In this document: piece by piece, positions 4,699 to 61,382 of the stretch
Numbering within the stretch: position 1 is the first letter of the stretch
How the letters are laid out: every line of letters starts with the position of its first letter
Source of the DNA: Fibrobacter sp. UWB10
GTDB taxonomy: Bacteria; Fibrobacterota; Fibrobacteria; Fibrobacterales; Fibrobacteraceae
DNA: 64,000 nucleotides
Direction: 5' to 3'
NCBI RefSeq assembly: GCF_900182935.1
Contig: NZ_FXUE01000002.1
Coordinates: 682,001 to 746,000, forward strand
The notes under the pieces: generated by a model
What the model was told of the DNA's origin: nothing
Databases searched by the model: none
Seen by the model: only the letters and a program-made list of their open reading frames with translations
Translations under genes and position numbers: made by a program

Positions 4699-4733
4699 AA
4701 AGAAAAAGGACTCTTAAAGAGTCCTTTTTCTTT
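4699..4733 (-). terminator. tmRNA terminator (symmetric)
   Basis: A perfect inverted repeat: AAAGAAAAAGGACTCT and its complement around a TAA loop. On the minus strand it gives a GC stem closed by A and T runs, 2 bases beyond the mature tmRNA 3' end. The symmetry would let it stop transcription from either side. Confidence 0.88.
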
Positions 4734-4734
4734 A

Positions 4735-5092
4735 TGGAGGTGAGGGGAGTCGAACCCCTGTCCAAAATCACGTCCATGCACGTTCCTACAAGCGTTCCCT
4801 TCGTATTTAAGGTCTCGTCTGATCTACGCCCAAGAAGGTCGGCGCGGACTTTGACCAGCCTAGTGAATCTCGGACTCTAGCCCCAGGCATGCGAGAATCC
4901 TATCCCATATTGCGTCCGGACTTTCACCCCGATGGGAGCGGAATGAGGCCCGGCGTTGCCGTTAATTAGGCAGCGAGTGCGTAGTTTTCGTCAGCACTTA
5001 TTTTTTTTTCAGACTTTTTTACGAGTGCCCTCGTCTGAGACCTCGGCTTGCAACTAACACTTCGGTAACCCTGTCGAAACCAGAGCACCCCC
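4735..5092 (-). ncRNA. ssrA: tmRNA (transfer-messenger RNA), tag ADENYALAA
   Basis: The RNA rescues stalled ribosomes and adds a degradation tag. The 5' end reads GGGGGUGCUCUGGUUUCGAC, the tmRNA signature, and pairs GGGGGUG with CACCUCC at the 3' end to make a 7-bp acceptor stem with discriminator A at 4735. The T arm is the segment with GGGGTTCGACTCCCC. The CCA end is not encoded. The resume codon starts an open frame at 4995 that reads Ala-Asp-Glu-Asn-Tyr-Ala-Leu-Ala-Ala with stop TAA at 4966-4968. Length is 358 nt, normal for one-piece tmRNA. No -10 box is seen directly upstream of 5092; the nearest good one on this strand is TATATT at 5267-5272, beyond a hairpin array, so the primary transcript may carry a long structured leader. 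Confidence 0.95.
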
Positions 5093-13133: not shown

Positions 13134-13182
13134 TGTGCAATGTGGAATGTGAAATTAATCATCTCACATCTCACATTATATC
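13134..13182. repeat. Heptanucleotide array between the PIN gene and yraN
   Basis: Seven units in 7-base phase: TGTGCAA, TGTGGAA, TGTGAAA, TTAATCA, TCTCACA, TCTCACA, TTATATC. The first half is roughly the complement of the second, so it can fold. It starts directly after the PIN stop and runs into the last codons of yraN on the other strand. Confidence 0.8.
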
Positions 13183-28567: not shown

Positions 28568-30748
<2,181 letters not shown>

Positions 30749-36322: not shown

Positions 36323-36391
36323 AATGTGAAGTGTGAGATGTAAAATGTTTAATTCCACATTCCACATTACACATTGCACATTATATCTTTC
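36322..36391. repeat. Heptanucleotide array after the redox operon
   Basis: Ten units in 7-base phase, starting GAATGTG, AAGTGTG, AGATGTA, AAATGTT, TAATTCC and continuing ACATTCC, ACATTAC, ACATTGC, ACATTAT, ATCTTTC. The two halves are roughly complementary, so the region can fold. It overlaps the last codons of the glycosyltransferase-like gene. The end CACATTATATCT is shared with the array at 13.17 kb. Confidence 0.82.
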
Positions 36392-38250: not shown

Positions 38251-38323
38251 GGGCTACTAGCTCAGTTGGTAGAGCAACGCCCTTTTAAGGCGTGGGTCGA
38301 AGGTTCGAGCCCTTCGTAGCTCA
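38251..38323 (+). tRNA. tRNA-Lys (anticodon TTT)
   Basis: A 73-base cloverleaf. Acceptor GGGCTAC pairs with GTAGCTC, discriminator A; D arm GCTCAGTTGGTAGAGC; anticodon loop CTTTTAA with TTT; T arm with GGTTCGAGCCC. CCA is not encoded. Confidence 0.97.
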
Positions 38324-38409: not shown

Positions 38410-38483
38410 CGGGGTGTAGCTCAGCCTGGTAGAGCGTCTGCTTTGGGAGCAGAATGTCGTCAGTTCGAATCTGGCTACCCCGA
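38410..38483 (+). tRNA. tRNA-Pro (anticodon TGG)
   Basis: A 74-base cloverleaf. Acceptor CGGGGTG pairs with TACCCCG (one G-U), discriminator A; D arm GCTCAGCCTGGTAGAGC; anticodon loop TTTGGGA with TGG; T arm with AGTTCGAATCT. CCA is not encoded. The 3' half, from 38459 on, is repeated in inverted form at 38531-38546. Confidence 0.97.
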
Positions 38484-39789: not shown

Positions 39790-41121
39790 CTAGACTATCT
39801 TCCTATCCGCAATCCACTTTCGGACAGATTCTTCGGCGCGAGCCGCAAGAATCTCTTTTTTATTTTTTTTCTTGAGACCTTCGTGGTGGGGGAGCAGCCC
39901 GAAATTGAAATTCATGGGCTGGAAGTCTTCGTTTTCTTCCACCAGGCGGTTCATGAGCGAGCCGATGCAGCTTTCGTCCGGCAGCGGGTCGGCATGCCCG
40001 TGTAGGATCGTCTGTGCCATATTCCAGGCGGCGTACCAGCCAGTGGCGACCGCTTCGGTGTAGCCTTCGGAACCCGTAATCTGGCCCGCAAACCATGTAG
40101 GCGGAATGTTCTTGGCGCATTCAAGATCCGGGCGCAGGCGGAGTGTCTTGTCCAGGAATTTGGGAGATTCAATGAAGGTGTTGCGGTGCATGCAGCCGAG
40201 GCGTGCAAATTTCGCATTGCGGAGTGCCGGCACCATGGTGAAGATTTCCTTTTGCGTGCCCCATTTGAGGCGCGTCTGGAAACCCACCATATTGAACAAA
40301 GTCTTTTGCTTGTTTTCGGCGCGGAGCTGGATCACCGCGTACCACAATTTTCCGTTGTTGCCGAGACCAAGGCCAATCGGACGCATGGGACCGTGGCGGA
40401 GCGTTTCAAAACCGCGGCGGGCCATTTCTTCTACTGGCAAGCAACCTTCGAACAGCTCGTTCTTTTCGAACGGGCGCGGCTCGGTGCTTTCGGCTTCGCA
40501 GAGTTTGCGCACAAATTCGGTGTAGGTTTCCTTGTCCAGCGGGCAGTTGATAAAGTCAGCCGTTTCGCCCTTTTCCCAACGGTTGCGGTAAAAGGCGTGG
40601 TCAAAGTCGATACTGTCGGTTTCGACAACCGGAGCGATGGCGTCAAAAAAGTGTAGACGATTGCTGCCGAGGCGCTTGAAAATGTCGTCGGCAAGCGCGT
40701 CACTAGCCAAGGGGCCTGCGGCTACGAGAGTCGGACAGTCGCCTTCGAGGCTTGTGACTTCTTCGCGGTGGAGTGTAATGTTTGGCGATTCAGCAATCTT
40801 TTTTTCGACCGATTCGCTGAAAATATCGCGGTTAACAGTGAGCGAGTCGCCTGCGGGCACGGCCGCTTCGCGGGCCGAATCCAGCAAAAAACTCCCGAGC
40901 ATCGTGAGTTCTTGCTTTAAAAGTCCGTGAGCACTTGTAATGCCCAAAGCCTTAAAGCTGTTGGAACAAACTAATTGTGCCAAATGGCCGTCCTTGTGGG
41001 CAGGAGTCTGCCTTACCGGGCGCATTTCGTACAAATCAACCTTAAAACCGCGACTTGCAAGTTGCAAAGCCGCTTCGCAGCCAGCAAGGCCGCCACCAAT
41101 TACACGAACTTTTTGAGTCAT
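39790..41121 (-). CDS. trmFO: tRNA uridine(54) C5-methyltransferase, folate/FAD-dependent
   Basis: A 443-residue flavoprotein that makes ribothymidine at tRNA position 54 with methylene-tetrahydrofolate as carbon donor. The FAD site VRVIGGGLAGCEAALQLA is at residues 5-22, followed by the TrmFO signature EMRPVRQTPAHKDGHLAQLVCSN and, near the C-terminus, FAGQITGSEGYTEAVATGWYAA. Length is normal (about 440). Upstream, a 28-base gap holding four heptamers separates it from a small gene in the same direction, so the pair with the AICAR transformylase gene further up may be one operon of folate-dependent enzymes. Confidence 0.95.
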   Translation of the reverse strand: MTQKVRVIGGGLAGCEAALQLASRGFKVDLYEMRPVRQTPAHKDGHLAQLVCSNSFKALGITSAHGLLKQELTMLGSFLLDSAREAAVPAGDSLTVNRDIFSESVEKKIAESPNITLHREEVTSLEGDCPTLVAAGPLASDALADDIFKRLGSNRLHFFDAIAPVVETDSIDFDHAFYRNRWEKGETADFINCPLDKETYTEFVRKLCEAESTEPRPFEKNELFEGCLPVEEMARRGFETLRHGPMRPIGLGLGNNGKLWYAVIQLRAENKQKTLFNMVGFQTRLKWGTQKEIFTMVPALRNAKFARLGCMHRNTFIESPKFLDKTLRLRPDLECAKNIPPTWFAGQITGSEGYTEAVATGWYAAWNMAQTILHGHADPLPDESCIGSLMNRLVEENEDFQPMNFNFGLLPHHEGLKKKNKKEILAARAEESVRKWIADRKIV

Positions 41122-41149
41122 CTAAGATCTAAGCTCTAAGTTCTTCTAA
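41122..41149. repeat. Heptanucleotide array filling the gap before trmFO
   Basis: CTAAGAT, CTAAGCT, CTAAGTT, CTTCTAA: four 7-base units occupy exactly the 28 bases between the trmFO start and the stop of the 151-aa gene. Confidence 0.78.
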
Positions 41150-52546: not shown

Positions 52547-53146
52547 ATGAATCGTTATGACTTGGTACTTCTGGGCCTGATCCTGGAAAAGGAGCGCAGC
52601 GGTTACGACATCATTACCGAAGTGCGCAATCGCGAACTGGACCGCTGGGCAAACCTCAGCACGTCGACCGTTTACAACAGGCTTGCGACACTCGAAAAGC
52701 ATGGTGACATTGCTGGCCGTAGCGAACGCGATGGTAACCGCCCTGAACGCGTGGTTTTCTCGATTACTGAAAAAGGTCGAGAAACTTTGCGCAAGGAAGT
52801 GCTAAAGCATTTGACCGGCTTTAACGATGATCCGAGAACGCTCGGTTTTGCCTTCCTTTTCGGTGCCGAACAAAAGGAATTGATCCGCACACTGGAAGCG
52901 CATGAACGTCGACTGGTGAAAGAGGTTGAACGCTTGGAACAGATGATTGCCGAAGAACCGCGCCCGACCCTTTTTGCCGAAGGTCCGTTCCTCAACTGCA
53001 TGAGCCGCGACCACATTCTGGTGGAACTCAAGTACGTGCGCGCCGCTATCGGAATCTTGCGCGATCCGGTACGCAACAAGAAGCTTAACGGCTACTTCTA
53101 CATCAATTTCGGTAACAGAGATTTTGTGGATAAGAAAAAGGATTAA
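52547..53146 (+). CDS. PadR-family transcriptional regulator
   Basis: A 199-residue winged-helix repressor. N-terminal PadR domain: DLVLLGLILEKERSGYDIITEV, STSTVYNRLATLEKHGDIAGRSERDG and RVVFSITEKGRETLRKEV (residues 5-85). The C-terminal half is the Vir-type helical dimerisation domain (KELIRTLEAHERRLVKEVERLEQMI, ILVELKYVRAAIGILRD). PadR proteins often sense small molecules. It lies 117 bases upstream of cellobiose phosphorylase in the same direction, and may control that gene as well as its own promoter, with a sugar as a possible ligand (inference). Confidence 0.92.
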   Translation: MNRYDLVLLGLILEKERSGYDIITEVRNRELDRWANLSTSTVYNRLATLEKHGDIAGRSERDGNRPERVVFSITEKGRETLRKEVLKHLTGFNDDPRTLGFAFLFGAEQKELIRTLEAHERRLVKEVERLEQMIAEEPRPTLFAEGPFLNCMSRDHILVELKYVRAAIGILRDPVRNKKLNGYFYINFGNRDFVDKKKD

Positions 53147-53147
53147 T

Positions 53148-53217
53148 GAATGTGTAATGTGGAATGTGTAATGTGAAATTTAGGATCTCTCATTTCACAT
53201 TTCTCATCTCACATTTT
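53148..53217. repeat. Heptanucleotide array between padR and cellobiose phosphorylase
   Basis: Ten units in strict 7-base phase: GAATGTG, TAATGTG, GAATGTG, TAATGTG, AAATTTA, GGATCTC, TCATTTC, ACATTTC, TCATCTC, ACATTTT. Left and right halves are approximate complements. It begins 2 bases after the padR stop and ends at the -10 box TATATT (53219-53224) of the next gene. Confidence 0.88.
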
Positions 53218-53263: not shown

Positions 53264-55783
53264 ATGGCTACAAAACAGACCAAGAAGAGCGCCCCGAAGG
53301 CCAAGAAGGTTGCAGCTAAGACTGCTGCAAAGTACGGCTACTTTGACGACGCCAAGAAAGAATACGTGCTTACCACGCCGGCAACCCCGATCAAGTGGTG
53401 CAACTATGTTGGTACTTTGAACTTTGGTGGTATCGTGGATACTACTGGCGGTACCCTCGTTTGCAAGGGCGACCCGGCCCTGAACCGTATCACCAAGTAC
53501 ATCGCCCAGATGCCTTGCTCTGACTTTAAGGCCAGCACCATCTATATCCGCGTGAAGAACGCCAAGGGTTATACCGTGTTCTCTCCGTTCGTGGTTCCGA
53601 CTCTCACCAAGATGAAGAAGTGGGAATGCCACGTGGGTCTTTCTTACATGCGCTGGATCGCCGAATGCGAAGGCCTCCGTACGCAGGTGACGATTTTCGT
53701 GCCGACTGGCTCCAACACACTCCTCCAGGATATCCAGGTCACGAACCTCGACAAGGCTTCCAAGGAAGTGGATATTATCCCGGTTTATGAATTCAGCCAC
53801 TTCGAAGCTGAAAAGCAGCTCACCAACGCCGACTGGGTTCCGCAGACCATGACCCTCAAGGGCCACTGGGAAAAGGACGGCCACGTGGTGCTCGAACAGT
53901 ACGCTTACATGAAGCGTGACTTCGCCGTGAACTATGTGACTGCAAACTGCAAGGTCGGTAGCTTCGATGGCGACCGCCGCGTGTTCCTCGGCGCAAACGA
54001 AATGGGTTCCTGGGCTGCTCCGCTCAGCCTCGCCAACAAAGAACTTTCCAACAGCGAATGCGATCGTGGCGACAACATTGCCGCTCTCATGATCCACGCT
54101 GGCAAGATTGCCGCTAACAAGACCTTCCGCACCTGCACCCAGCTCGGTCAGGAACAGAGCCTGAAGGTTGCTTCTAAGGCAATCGCCAAGTACCGCGACT
54201 TGAAGAACGTCGACAAGGCTTTCGACGAACTCGCCAAGTTCTGGGAAAAGTACCTCTCTACGATCCAGGTGCAGACTCCGGATGCAGCGTTCAACTCCAT
54301 GGTGAACGTGCACAACCCGCGTCAGTGCCACACCACCAAGAACTGGAGCCGCTACCTGTCCCTGTATCAGCTGGGCTACGGCACCAGCCGCGGTATCGGT
54401 TACCGTGACTCCAGCCAGGACCTCATGGGCGTGATGAGCCACATGCCGGAAGAAGCATTGGAACTCGCCTTGAACCTGCTCTCTGTGCAGCGTCCTGAAG
54501 GTAACGCCATGCACCAGTACGCTCCGCTTGCCCTTGCTGAAGACAACGGCAACGAAGCTAACGCCGGTGACTCCCGCGAAAAGAAGGGTGTGCTCGATGA
54601 AAACGGCAACCCGGCTTACGCTGACTGGTACGGCGACGACCACCTGTGGATTGTGCTCACCATTGCTAACTACCTCAAGGAAACCGGCAAGATGGACCTC
54701 CTCAAGAAGGAAGTTCCGTTCTACGAAGCCGGCAAGAAGCGCGCCCAGCGTGAAAAGGGCTCCGTGCTCGAACACCTCAAGCGTTCTCTCAACTTTACCC
54801 GTACTCACCTTGGTAAGCACGGCCTTCCGCTCCTCGGCTTTGCCGACTGGAACGACTGCATGAACCTCCCGCTCGGTGCAGAATCCTCCTTCAACACGGG
54901 CCTGTATGCTAAGGCTCTCCTTGAAATGATGGACATCTGCGAAGCTCTCGGCGACACCAAGTCTGTCGAAATGTACAAGGGCTGGTACGAAGACGTGAAG
55001 AAGGCCTTCAATGACAGCGCTTGGGACGGCAAGTGGTGGGTCCGCTGGTTCGACAAGCAGGGCAACGCCTACGGCACCAACAAGGCCAAGTACGGTAAGA
55101 TTTACTGCAACAGCCAGTCCTGGTCTGTGATTTCTGGCATTGCTACTGGCGACCGTGCCGTGATGGGCATGGACAGCCTGAACAAGCTCCTCAACACCGC
55201 CAACGGCGTGAAGAGCTCTACTCCGGGCTACCGCGGCTTCGACCCGAACGTGGGTGGCATTTCTACCTATCCTCCTGGAGCCAAGGAAAACGGCGGTATC
55301 TTCCTCCACACCAACCCGTGGGTGATGATTGCCGAAACGATTCTCGGCCGTGGCGACAAGGCCTTCCAGTATTACAGCCAAATTAACCCGGCTGCCAAGA
55401 ACACCAAGCTCGACGAGTTCGAATCTGAACCGTATTGCTATCCGCAGAACATCCTCGGTGACGAACACAAGCAGTTCGGTATGGGCCGTAACGCATGGCT
55501 CTCCGGTACCAGCTCCTGGACTTACCAGGCTGCAACGCAGTTCATCATCGGTGTCCGCGCAAGCTTCAAGGGCCTCATCGTGAATCCCTGCATCCCGAGC
55601 TCTTGGGACGGCTTCAAGGTGACCCGCAAGTTCCGCGGCGCTACCTACGAAATCGAAGTGAAGAACCCGAAGCACGTGTGCAAGGGTGTCGCCGAGATGA
55701 TCGTCGATGGCAAGAAGATTGACGCTGACGTGGCCCCGATTTTCACGAAGGGTACTCATAAAGTTGAGGTTACCCTCGGTTAA
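53264..55783 (+). CDS. GH94 cellobiose phosphorylase
   Basis: An 839-residue inverting phosphorylase that splits cellobiose with phosphate to glucose-1-phosphate and glucose, saving ATP in cellulose use. After a 23-residue Lys/Ala-rich N-terminus comes the GH94 start YGYFDDAKKEYVLTTPATP. GYRDSSQDLMG and GFADWNDCMNLPL lie in the catalytic (alpha/alpha)6 domain; the Asp of ADWNDC is the general acid. The end has the conserved NPCIPSSWDGFKVTRKFRG. No signal peptide: cytosolic. Length agrees with cellobiose phosphorylases (about 810) plus the tail. A PadR gene and a -10 box lie upstream; a terminator follows. Confidence 0.96.
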   Translation: MATKQTKKSAPKAKKVAAKTAAKYGYFDDAKKEYVLTTPATPIKWCNYVGTLNFGGIVDTTGGTLVCKGDPALNRITKYIAQMPCSDFKASTIYIRVKNAKGYTVFSPFVVPTLTKMKKWECHVGLSYMRWIAECEGLRTQVTIFVPTGSNTLLQDIQVTNLDKASKEVDIIPVYEFSHFEAEKQLTNADWVPQTMTLKGHWEKDGHVVLEQYAYMKRDFAVNYVTANCKVGSFDGDRRVFLGANEMGSWAAPLSLANKELSNSECDRGDNIAALMIHAGKIAANKTFRTCTQLGQEQSLKVASKAIAKYRDLKNVDKAFDELAKFWEKYLSTIQVQTPDAAFNSMVNVHNPRQCHTTKNWSRYLSLYQLGYGTSRGIGYRDSSQDLMGVMSHMPEEALELALNLLSVQRPEGNAMHQYAPLALAEDNGNEANAGDSREKKGVLDENGNPAYADWYGDDHLWIVLTIANYLKETGKMDLLKKEVPFYEAGKKRAQREKGSVLEHLKRSLNFTRTHLGKHGLPLLGFADWNDCMNLPLGAESSFNTGLYAKALLEMMDICEALGDTKSVEMYKGWYEDVKKAFNDSAWDGKWWVRWFDKQGNAYGTNKAKYGKIYCNSQSWSVISGIATGDRAVMGMDSLNKLLNTANGVKSSTPGYRGFDPNVGGISTYPPGAKENGGIFLHTNPWVMIAETILGRGDKAFQYYSQINPAAKNTKLDEFESEPYCYPQNILGDEHKQFGMGRNAWLSGTSSWTYQAATQFIIGVRASFKGLIVNPCIPSSWDGFKVTRKFRGATYEIEVKNPKHVCKGVAEMIVDGKKIDADVAPIFTKGTHKVEVTLG

Positions 55784-58515: not shown

Positions 58516-58550
58516 TAATTTAGTAATTTTTAATTGTTAATTATTCATTT
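58516..58550. repeat. AT-rich heptanucleotide array between divergent genes
   Basis: TAATTTA, GTAATTT, TTAATTG, TTAATTA, TTCATTT: five units in phase within the 47-base gap. The last unit recurs at 58586, exactly 42 bases (six units) on. Confidence 0.7.
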
Positions 58551-58556
58551 CTGACT

Positions 58557-59303
58557 ATGAAACTGTATCTTCGACTAATCCTAGCTTCATTTCTCATCTC
58601 ACATTTCACATTGGTCTTCGCCGAGGCTCCTCGCGTGGTTCCTGAAATTTTGGATTCCATTCCGCATGAAAAGTCTCATTTTACGCAGGGCTTGTTCTTT
58701 GACGGCAAGGAATTGATTGAAACGACGGGCTTGTATGGGCAATCGGGCTTGTACCGCCGTACGCTTGACGGCAAGATTCTGGATTCTGCAAGGCTAGAAG
58801 ACAAGTATTTTGGCGAAGGCTCGATTGCTGTGGGCGACGACATTTTCTACTTGACCTGGAAATCCAAGAAGGCCTTCATTTACAGTCGCAAGCCGTTTGC
58901 GAGAAAGGGCGAATTCAGCATTCCTACCGAGGGCTGGGGCCTTACTTACTGGAAGAGCACTTTGCTTATGAGCAACGGCTCTAGCGAACTTTTGCAGCTG
59001 GCTCTCGGCGGATTCTACGTGGTTGGAGCCATTCCTGTGACCGATGGCGGTCGCCCGGTAAAGCTCTTGAACGAACTTGAAATCGTGGGCGATACGCTTT
59101 ATGCAAACATCTGGCAGACAGGCGCTATTGCTGTCATTTCTCTCCCGAGCGGGAAGGTAATTCGTTATCTGGATTTAAGCCGCAAGGTTGCAGAACTCAA
59201 GCGCAAGCACCCGGATATTGATGTGCTGAATGGCATTGCCTACGACGGCAAGAATCTTTGGATTACCGGCAAGAATTGGCCGCAGATTTATAAACTGAAG
59301 TAA
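58557..59303 (+). CDS. Glutaminyl-peptide cyclotransferase (plant/bacterial five-blade type)
   Basis: A 248-residue exported enzyme that turns N-terminal Gln into pyroglutamate, common where type IX-type exported proteins begin with Gln. The signal peptide (MKLYLRLILASFLISHFTLVFA) is followed by beta-propeller motifs: HEKSHFTQGLFFDGKELIETTGLYGQSGL, FGEGSIAVGDDIFYLTWK, GWGLTYWKSTLLMSNGSSEL, LLNELEIVGDTLYANIWQT and LNGIAYDGKNLWITGKNWP. The active-site Glu (ELE in LLNELE) and Trp are present. Half of the signal peptide hydrophobic core is encoded by a heptamer array. Confidence 0.9.
   Translation: MKLYLRLILASFLISHFTLVFAEAPRVVPEILDSIPHEKSHFTQGLFFDGKELIETTGLYGQSGLYRRTLDGKILDSARLEDKYFGEGSIAVGDDIFYLTWKSKKAFIYSRKPFARKGEFSIPTEGWGLTYWKSTLLMSNGSSELLQLALGGFYVVGAIPVTDGGRPVKLLNELEIVGDTLYANIWQTGAIAVISLPSGKVIRYLDLSRKVAELKRKHPDIDVLNGIAYDGKNLWITGKNWPQIYKLK
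58586..58613 (+). repeat. Heptanucleotide array inside the signal peptide of glutaminyl cyclase
   Basis: TTCATTT, CTCATCT, CACATTT, CACATTG encode Ser-Phe-Leu-Ile-Ser-His-Phe-Thr-Leu. CATTTCTCATCTCACATTT is also found, base for base, in the array at 53.2 kb. Confidence 0.8.
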
Positions 59304-59345: not shown

Positions 59346-61382
59346 TCAGTTCCTGAAGGTCCAGACGATGCCGTAGGCGAAGCGGAGGCCTTCGGGCGTG
59401 TAACCGCTAGCAGGCATGTAAATGCTGTGGTTGAAGTTCTCGATTCGGGTGTAAAGTTCGAACGAAAGAATCTGCATGCGGGCTTCAAAGTCAAGCGCCA
59501 AGTACTTTTTCATGAGTTCCAGTTCGGGCCCACCGTGTTCCCCAATCGTGCAGTCGTAGCGTTCGCCGAACCATTGCCAGTCCACACGCACACTCACGCC
59601 CAAGCGATCTGACACAAAGCGATTCTGCCAGTGAATGGAGCCCTTGTAGTAGAGTTCCGGCGTATCGATGAGCTTGAAGCTGCGGTCAAGAGTTTCGCCG
59701 CGTTCCAGGTAGAACTTCCAGTTACCAAGCCTGAAGCCGACTTGCAAAATCCAGTCGAGGCTGTTCACGTTGCTGATGTTGGTCCAAGTGTAAACGTCGT
59801 CGATGGCGTCTGTCGAATCGACGGCTCCATGCTTGACCCAGCGCGGCTTGATCAAGTTGTCGACATCTTCGTAACGGAGCCCGATTCCGTAAAAGACTTC
59901 GCGCTGCTGGTAGCCCAAGTTGAAGGAATAGCGATCGCGTTCTTCGTACTTGAGGTCTTTGCGGGCAAAGGCGAGTCGGCCCGTTTCATTGATTTTGAGT
60001 TGGCCTACATCGGGGAACTTGTTGTCGTGTCGCCAGCCAGCGCTTGCGCGAAAATGGAAGGGCAAGAAGGCGAGTACGTCGGCGGAGTAGGCGGGAGCGT
60101 AATCGACAGAATCACGTACAGAGCTGTTGCGTTGCAAGCCCGTTTGCGTGCGGAAAAGAATTTTATTCCAGAGGGTATCCTTGAGTTCCAGGTAGCCGAT
60201 TTCGCGGTCCTGATAATAGGTATTCGTGGTATCGTTAACGCCCGTGTTGTCGGTGTTCAGGAATTCGTACTTGAACTTGATGGCTGGATTGAAGATGGTG
60301 TGGTAGCCGATGCCGAAGTTGCCGAGCATGGATTGGTAATTCGTCTTCCGTTCTGTGTCGTAGAAAAGCGAATCGCGGTGGAGAACGCCTGCGGTGTCGG
60401 TATATTCGTGAGAACCCTTGTAGATACGGGCGAGTGAATCCAGTTCAATATCGTGTTCGGTGTATTGCAGGTCGGCTGAAAGCGTGAGCTTCTTGGTCGG
60501 GTAGAATTCGACTCCGCCGCCGTAGCCGAAGCTGTGAATCTCGATGACGTAGGGGTCGGTTTGGAAGTTTCGAATTGCCTTGTCGAGCGTGTCGAGCAGA
60601 ACTTTGTGGTTCGTGTTGTCGGCGTTTCGAAGGTTCACATAGTTCAATTTGGCGAAAGCTTTACCGAATCCGAATCTCCAGGTGAGAATCGGCTGGATGT
60701 GCATGCTGTTCATGGCGATGTTACGCCCGCCAAAAGGAATTTGTGTGGAGTCGCGGCCCAGCGCGAAGTACGGCGAGTGCGTCACGTTCTGGTAGCTGTA
60801 TTCTTTGGAATCGACGTCGGAATGGCTGGCGAGTCCGAATTCAAGCGAAACGGAATCGGTCACGAGTCTGCGGAAGTCGAGGCGCAGGGCGTTACCGCCA
60901 AAGGCGGGGCGTTCCCAGTTGAGGTCGGTCACGGGAGTGTCGACCGGGATTCCCTTGCGTTCTTCGGTCAGAATACCGTTTTCACCATTCAGCCCGAGAG
61001 TCGTAGCGTCGTAACCTAGTCGTGTGGTAAAAAGGCCTGCAAGCTTGCTCGGGTAGCGGCTCTGGATTGAGCCCATGCCTAAAAAGTCGGCTTCAAGTTC
61101 CGGTGCGCCAAGAATAGAGGTGCCCAGGAGCCATTCGGATTTCTGGCCCGAAATGTCATAGGTGCGCTGCAGGAGTCCACGGAGCGGGAGCACCCAACGG
61201 CCGGCGTCGGTTTCGCGGGGAGCGGGGTCAATGGCCCAGGGGGTCTTGTAGACGGAATCTTGCGCAGATGGTTTTACGTACTGGTCTGGCTTTAGCGGTT
61301 CAGCAAATAGGGTGGCCGCTAAGAAAATCAAGACGAGAGATGAAAGACGAGAGACGAGAGATGTCATTTTGGTTAGTACCAT
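59346..61382 (-). CDS. Large outer-membrane barrel (putative porin)
   Basis: A 678-residue exported protein. The signal peptide (MVLTKMTSLVSRLSSLVLIFLAATLFAEP) is partly encoded by heptamer repeats. After about 80 residues the protein is a long run of amphipathic aromatic strands (for example FAKLNYVNLR, LSADLQYTEHDIEL, RYSFNLGYQQREVFYGIGLRYED) and ends GLRFAYGIVWTFRN, a barrel-type end like the TonB-receptor/putative porin group of Bacteroidota-type bacteria. No plug domain is visible, so a porin is more likely than a TonB receptor. The start overlaps the stop of the PHP gene upstream; an ATG at 61367 is an alternative. Confidence 0.75.
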   Translation of the reverse strand: MVLTKMTSLVSRLSSLVLIFLAATLFAEPLKPDQYVKPSAQDSVYKTPWAIDPAPRETDAGRWVLPLRGLLQRTYDISGQKSEWLLGTSILGAPELEADFLGMGSIQSRYPSKLAGLFTTRLGYDATTLGLNGENGILTEERKGIPVDTPVTDLNWERPAFGGNALRLDFRRLVTDSVSLEFGLASHSDVDSKEYSYQNVTHSPYFALGRDSTQIPFGGRNIAMNSMHIQPILTWRFGFGKAFAKLNYVNLRNADNTNHKVLLDTLDKAIRNFQTDPYVIEIHSFGYGGGVEFYPTKKLTLSADLQYTEHDIELDSLARIYKGSHEYTDTAGVLHRDSLFYDTERKTNYQSMLGNFGIGYHTIFNPAIKFKYEFLNTDNTGVNDTTNTYYQDREIGYLELKDTLWNKILFRTQTGLQRNSSVRDSVDYAPAYSADVLAFLPFHFRASAGWRHDNKFPDVGQLKINETGRLAFARKDLKYEERDRYSFNLGYQQREVFYGIGLRYEDVDNLIKPRWVKHGAVDSTDAIDDVYTWTNISNVNSLDWILQVGFRLGNWKFYLERGETLDRSFKLIDTPELYYKGSIHWQNRFVSDRLGVSVRVDWQWFGERYDCTIGEHGGPELELMKKYLALDFEARMQILSFELYTRIENFNHSIYMPASGYTPEGLRFAYGIVWTFRN
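61332..61366. repeat. Heptanucleotide array inside the porin signal peptide
   Basis: GACGAGA, GATGAAA, GACGAGA, GACGAGA, GATGTCA: five units in phase. On the coding strand they give TSLVSRLSSLVL, part of the signal peptide. Confidence 0.8.

Follow-up and report, generated by a model that had tools for sequence, protein, structure and literature searches.

The short arrays of 7-bp units scattered through this Fibrobacter genome are, on balance, probably small dispersed inverted-repeat elements that belong to the class Fibrobacteria and have arms built of tandem heptamers, resized in 7-nt steps. Between species the unit is swapped while the 7-base step and the polarity of the arms stay fixed – suggesting spreading elements that are copied and resized by seven bases.

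Our starting point was a 64-kb window (contig C2, bases 682001-746000) of a 3.48-Mb genome assembled in 10 contigs. We scanned this window together with 1.6 Mb of further stretches (1.66 Mb in all, about half of the genome) using a lag score with no fixed unit (match +1, mismatch -2). Relatives were sampled as three congeners at 100 kb each, a genome of the same species at 400 kb, and about 240 further loci, with N runs excluded before lag-7 counts. Genes were called with a simple scorer and families assigned partly by eye; many of the genomes are MAGs, and loci from one slot are non-independent.

Period 7 proved specific. Within the window, lag 7 gave five segments and lags 4, 5, 6, 8, 10, 11, and 13 gave none. 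Across the 1.66 Mb, 34 lag-7 segments scored at least 12, compared to 1, 1, 0, 0, 0, and 0 segments at lags 4, 5, 6, 8, 10, and 13, and a local shuffle of the same DNA yielded zero lag-7 segments at that score. An earlier note on this DNA, made from the sequence alone, had described the 7-bp arrays and named the lack of a lag-7 excess over lags 5, 6, 8, and 9 as what would refute it; the excess is there (34 vs 0–1 in 1.66 Mb), and the observation is confirmed. In intergenic DNA, which makes up 11.7% of the 1.66 Mb, 44 lag-7 segments scored at least 10 (225/Mb), while the other tested lags from 4 to 17 gave 0–9 segments (0–46/Mb), with the exception of lag 14 (154/Mb), a harmonic of period 7. 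Large counts at lags 12, 15, and 21 – multiples of 3 – lay mostly within coding DNA. The excess of tandem units with a length of exactly 7 bp over those of other periods places the arrays with bacterial heptanucleotide repeats (STRR/long SSR).

The arrays of the window and the genes beside the one at 53148 are as follows:

13134..13176, no strand assigned: family A inverted pair between two convergent stop codons
30339..30402, minus strand: family J heptamer insert, in frame inside ligA, encoding a peptide of 17 residues
36323..36382, no strand assigned: family A inverted pair between convergent genes, one 7-bp unit shorter in the same-species genome G151
41120..41144, no strand assigned: family B array (CTAAGAT), single arm, between tandem genes
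52547..53146, plus strand: PadR-like regulator gene, its stop codon adjoining the 53148 array on the upstream side
53148..53216, plus strand: family A inverted pair that folds back, (AATGTGN)4 followed by a loop and a reverse-complement array
53264..55783, plus strand: glycoside hydrolase family 94 (GH94) gene, downstream of the 53148 array
58524..58549, no strand assigned: AT-rich heptamer array (TAATTNT) in a divergent intergenic region
58587..58612, no strand assigned: family A, C-rich strand, single arm, in the divergent region shared with the 58524 array
61331..61361, no strand assigned: family C array (GACGAGA), single arm, at the border of two tandem genes

The 53148 array reads GAATGTG TAATGTG GAATGTG TAATGTG, a short loop, then TCTCATT TCACATT TCTCATC TCACATT; downstream of it lie a T run and the promoter region of the GH94 gene. 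The genes flanking 13134..13176 are UPF0102 and one with a weak PIN-domain match. The earlier note had counted at least nine such loci at gene boundaries. Its description of 53148 stands; the array at 30346/30380 sits inside the ligA coding sequence, and 30751 was not called as a 7-bp array by our scan. Its statement that units differ between loci needs narrowing, as 13134, 36322, 53148, and 58586 have in common the degenerate family AATGTGA. An Rfam search of the window matched no array, returning only a tmRNA gene (4732-5092, minus strand) and two tRNA genes (38251-38323 and 38410-38483, plus strand), all ordinary.

Heptamer units belong to recurrent families – A (AATGTGA), B (CTTAGAA), C (GACGAGA), D (AGTAGGA/AGTAGAC), I (AGTGGTT), J (ATGAGGT), K (GAATTCC), and others – each present at many loci. 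Among 106 arrays in F. succinogenes-like data, whose loci are not all independent, 19 were AATGTGT-like, 17 ACGAGAG-like, 14 AAGTAGG-like, and 8 AACCACT-like. Specific strings of variants are dispersed. Of the 80 genus genomes, 24 contain the family D 20-mer AGTAGGAAGTTAGAAGTAGG, which has an odd unit at a constant position; a single genome has it at as many as 17 sites, and its reversed control had 0 matches. Thirty loci with AGTAGGAAGTTAGAAGTAGG that we read have a common outer end, variable spacers and, in many cases, a matching far arm. Non-orthologous family D loci in G000 (this genome) and G004 likewise agree in both arms (31/31 and 22-23 bp), while their spacers differ. For family A, AATGTGNAATGTG has 46 copies in this genome compared to 5 for its reversed control, and 0 in several complete congeners; family A counts reach 81 in G061, 64 in G042, and 48 in G054 and are near zero in the D-rich G004, G005, and G072. 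Families A and D are thus unevenly distributed across lineages, and particular units spread by lineage. The family A loop GTAATGAATAATTNCACA gave 6 matches in 5 genomes only and is not a widely dispersed motif. Terminal inverted repeats and dispersed copies are among the features of MITEs, and both were found.

Two further features of family D came up in these readings. At L226:1500-1650 the array is organized as a higher-order repeat, with a 28-bp block of four heptamers, AGTAGGCAGTAGGAGGTTGGAAGTAGGA, present about three times. Spacers at L230, L238, L246, and L074 contain a recurring hairpin core, TATAATCGCGGC...GCCGCC...ATTATA, which is possibly the original centre of the family D element.

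Array length changes in steps of seven. Within arrays, the length differences between close orthologous alleles were 7, 7, 7, 21, and 28 bp only, with other differences (1, 2, 5, and 9) falling in flanking bases; copy number changes by whole units (7, 21, 28 bp), as in heptanucleotide repeats generally. The comparison of array lengths between strains that the earlier note called for therefore returned changes only in sevens, both between species and within one (at 36352). In the same-species pair, the 36352 array differs by one unit, another array differs by one within-array substitution, and the 41120 and 53149 arrays are identical – near-identity that marks the arrays as inherited rather than hypervariable. 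The unit itself can drift in phase. At L135 the D-type series AGTAGAC AGTAGGC AGTAGAC passes into the I-type AGTGGTT AGTGATT with the phase unbroken, and similar drift from D into I is seen at other D loci.

The earlier note had proposed a mechanism that counts 7 bases rather than one spreading sequence. Read in this way, the arrays come from locus-by-locus replication slippage with a 7-nt step, starting from any intergenic seed, with families arising by coincidence; a published proposal likewise equates 7 nt with the footprint of the polymerase. That period 7 alone is over-represented, that within-array indels are all multiples of 7, and that units drift in phase along single arrays (D into I at L135, in the 36322 slot) would all be expected under slippage. 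We nevertheless think slippage by itself unlikely: exact ordered variant strings at up to 17 sites per genome already weaken it, recurrent families are lineage-dependent, and paired arms are of the same family with one polarity. The counting part of the note's proposal agrees with the 7-multiple steps. Its exclusion of a spreading sequence fails, as unit families are dispersed (AGTAGGAAGTTAGAAGTAGG in 24/80 genomes), ordered variant strings among them, and family A is uneven across lineages – though no single sequence accounts for all arrays.

Arrays are often paired. Among neighbouring array pairs, 39 of 73 are inverted with at most 2 of 7 mismatches, compared to 17.5% of random arm pairs, and in 45 of 47 distinct inverted pairs the C-poor arm (4.7% C) lies 5' and the C-rich arm 3' (p ~1e-11). 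In one of the two exceptions, other sequence is mixed into the right arm; the second is actually a direct repeat. Many arrays are single arms. Two arms from one locus resemble each other no more than do arms of one family taken from different loci (p=0.92), and they pair no better. That arms match by family, not unit by unit, argues against direct fold-back copying; the copying of one arm from the other is accordingly unsupported.

Placement relative to genes is also biased. Arrays abut a stop codon at 20 of 40 eligible loci, compared to 12.0 expected (p=0.0005), in agreement with the earlier note's remark that many start at or near a stop, and they are depleted next to start codons (4/46 vs 12.0 expected). 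Near stops the G-rich strand is co-directional with the gene in 24 of 31 cases, and near starts the C-rich strand is in 19 of 26. This arrangement, together with convergent pairs, is the layout of the dispersed intergenic GGGAATC heptamers of Xanthomonas, which form 70-75 convergent inverted pairs per genome, vary in length between species, and have the G-strand sense after stops and antisense before starts, for which action through G-quadruplexes has been proposed (PMC4692102). Fibrobacter arrays thus resemble the Xanthomonas repeats in heptamer construction, dispersal, intergenic sites, strand layout, convergent pairs, and length variation. They differ in that Xanthomonas has one G-tract unit, whereas Fibrobacter has many units, family replacement at one site, and no quadruplex-capable array among the 53 tested. 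The layout must therefore have another cause, at least in Fibrobacter, and quadruplex formation is excluded as a general reason for it.

In close relatives, an orthologous site can lack an array or carry one of another family. For the 53148 slot (between the PadR-like and GH94 genes) we read more than 40 alleles, five of them empty; most filled alleles carry one or more of the families A to L or ordinary hairpins, and where two arms face each other they are nearly always of one family, so that both switch together between sister species. On a tree of the flanking genes, well-supported sister pairs differ at this slot: L074 (D) and L096 (C; 100/97), L069 (F) and L128 (E; 99/98), and L097 (J+H) and L102 (D; 100/98). 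Interspecies recombination could contribute to these family differences. The 36322 slot is empty in L133, L137, L139, and L142, has family A in L131, L132, L134, and L140, D/I in L135, a D-like array in L136, and a REP-like palindrome in L138. At C1:702042, five genomes have D, one has K, and several are array-free. A single comparison of a filled allele (L061) with an empty one (L062), in which the flanks had changed, gave no clear target-site duplication. Some array pairs enclose native promoters (L069, L073, L129, L130) or terminators (C1:702042), which the simple insertion of one element does not explain.

The exchange extends into a protein. NAD-dependent DNA ligase, the product of ligA, is normally essential, and the array lies in its adenylation-domain region. 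The same loop has a J-family insert read in frame in seven genomes, C-family inserts in G019, G032, and G070, other repeat-like sequence in G025, G036, and G004, and is short in G003, G048, G034, and G022. The insert of G070 differs by 21 bp from that of G014/G047; 21 bp is three heptamers, so the frame is kept. REP-like palindromes of the form GTCATCCTGAGCG...GGATCC are found in L092 (53148 slot), L138 (36322 slot), and the ligA loop of L315, L316, and L336, again in frame at ligA. Their presence at array slots indicates that those sites accept several kinds of repeat insert.

Exchange of sequence with retention of structure is also what would be seen if selection kept the arrays as terminators, insulators, or sites for a heptamer-reading protein. 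Folding of the 53148 array is strong (-23.5 kcal/mol, z -5.8), as is that of 36322 (z -5.3) and 13134 (z -3.5), other species have palindromic REP-like elements or ordinary terminators in these slots, and the arrays have an orientation bias relative to genes. The strong fold and following T run make a terminator role for 53148 plausible on thermodynamic modelling, although a consensus pattern-based terminator scan did not call it. The fold-back that the earlier note described for the larger arrays is strong at these three loci and missing in 4 of the 7 window arrays tested (58586, 61331, 41120, and 30340). Those four arrays, the missed call at 53148, the frequency of empty alleles (including in close relatives), the lack of register-specific arm pairing, and insertions also within ligA lead us to regard selection for structure as a decidedly unlikely explanation. 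We take function to be optional, not defining, for the arrays.

Arrays of this kind range beyond Fibrobacter. Loci of Fibrimonadales gave 12 lag-7 segments compared to 0-2 at other lags except 14, with units ACTCTCA and CCCCATA and C-poor/C-rich pairs at two loci (L125 and L127). One lag-7 segment was found in loci of F. intestinalis-like and other Fibrobacteraceae genomes. G085, from another genus (g8), has the unit AGTGTAA and, at L340, a concentric nesting in which an outer GTGTGGG...CCCACAC surrounds an inner AAAGTGT...CTCTACT. The constancy of the period under a varying unit, noted earlier for loci of the window, thus holds across loci and species, and also across genera and even orders. 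At L340, the two nested heptamer layers are separated by a non-heptamer inverted sequence, agaacttggcagtgca / tgcaccgccgagtt.

Nesting of this sort is one point in favour of telomerase-like addition, in which a template-guided enzyme would put C-poor heptamers on the 3' ends of a break or opened hairpin before the ends are rejoined. The polarity fits 3' addition of the C-poor strand on either side of a break, arms agree in family but are out of register, and a bacterial telomerase-like enzyme that makes tandem-repeat DNA, DRT10, exists (PMC12632851). Against it stand the dispersed ordered variants, the conserved outer ends, the native DNA within some pairs, and the lack of an RVT_1 match in this genome or in the array-rich, at least 99% complete G003, G029, G061, and G032; we hold such addition to be highly doubtful. 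DRT10, a bacterial route to fixed-step tandem-repeat DNA, is a lead only, given that no reverse transcriptase match was found here. It is similarly very unlikely that the arrays are repair scars left by a heptamer-adding 3'-end polymerase at broken or opened palindromes with the ends rejoined. If they were, convergent arrays of one family with constant polarity would follow, as would nested families upon a repeat of the event at the centre, and the arrays would represent telomere-like terminal addition at internal sites of a bacterial chromosome.

Searches for a mover with two models, Y1_Tnp and RVT_1, returned no shared enzyme. The Y1_Tnp model matched 27 of 80 genomes and was absent from the array-rich, at least 99% complete G003, G061, G029, and G032; RVT_1 had no match in G000, G003, G061, G029, or G032, although divergent reverse transcriptases could escape the model. 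The copying enzyme suggested in the earlier note was thus not found among RVT_1 and Y1_Tnp matches, and a Y1 transposase/RAYT and a reverse transcriptase of these models are rejected as required movers in array-rich genomes. REP/BIME elements moved by a RAYT-type Y1 transposase – small, dispersed, intergenic palindromes of several families – are exceedingly improbable, largely refuted by the absence of Y1_Tnp from array-rich complete genomes, and REPs are not known to consist of heptamers.

Under the favoured reading of dispersed, heptamer-armed inverted-repeat elements, one element would run from a C-poor heptamer array, across 0 to ~150 bp of spacer, to a C-rich array of matching family. Period and polarity may come from arm synthesis by 3'-end extension or slippage in 7-nt steps, a synthesis that would make the C-poor strand toward the element centre. 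Arrays would land broadly and survive where least harmful – after a stop codon, beside a promoter, or in a tolerant protein loop. Some, such as 53148, would afterwards fold into a hairpin ahead of a T run and may contribute to transcription termination.

The parallel that the earlier note drew with the STRR heptamers of cyanobacteria is apt. Cyanobacterial STRRs comprise several degenerate heptamer families in which copy number changes by units, and in these respects the Fibrobacter arrays are like those of heterocystous cyanobacteria. They belong to another phylum and have other units, they exchange about ten families in the same slot at several loci, and their strand polarity, as measured in this work, is fixed. 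In the Nostoc tRNA-Leu intron, both hairpin arms of P6b are heptamers, in two motif classes (PMC3488679). TAACTGA heptamers of Beggiatoaceae, Cyanobacteria, and Bacteroidetes are similarly intergenic arrays with a patchy phylogeny but have one exact unit, lie mostly just 5' of start codons, and include a single inverted case; a genome survey, as cited in the same paper, found that in most genomes no repeat class was commoner than heptamers and proposed a polymerase footprint (PMC4679880). Rickettsia palindromic elements (~150 bp) are short and dispersed, form several families, and in some cases lie in frame in metabolic genes (PMC10969869). These and MITEs share with the Fibrobacter arrays short dispersed palindromes, several families, and in-frame insertion, which in Fibrobacter is shown at one locus, ligA; the Rickettsia elements are not described as heptamer-built.

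Heptamers are an odd excess repeat class in many bacterial genomes. Fibrobacter offers a natural experiment: the unit has been exchanged repeatedly at the same sites while period, polarity, and placement rule stay, separating effects of sequence from effects of the 7-bp step. In-frame exchange at ligA means that such elements rewrite protein loops, and the Fibrobacter species sets are big enough for direct study of array birth, spread, and loss. A second slot lies in the 5' leader of the GH94 gene, in the interval between promoter and RBS (e.g., L084, L100, and L102), where many horse and rumen strains have C-rich arrays (ATCATCA, CTAACCA) of a single strand.
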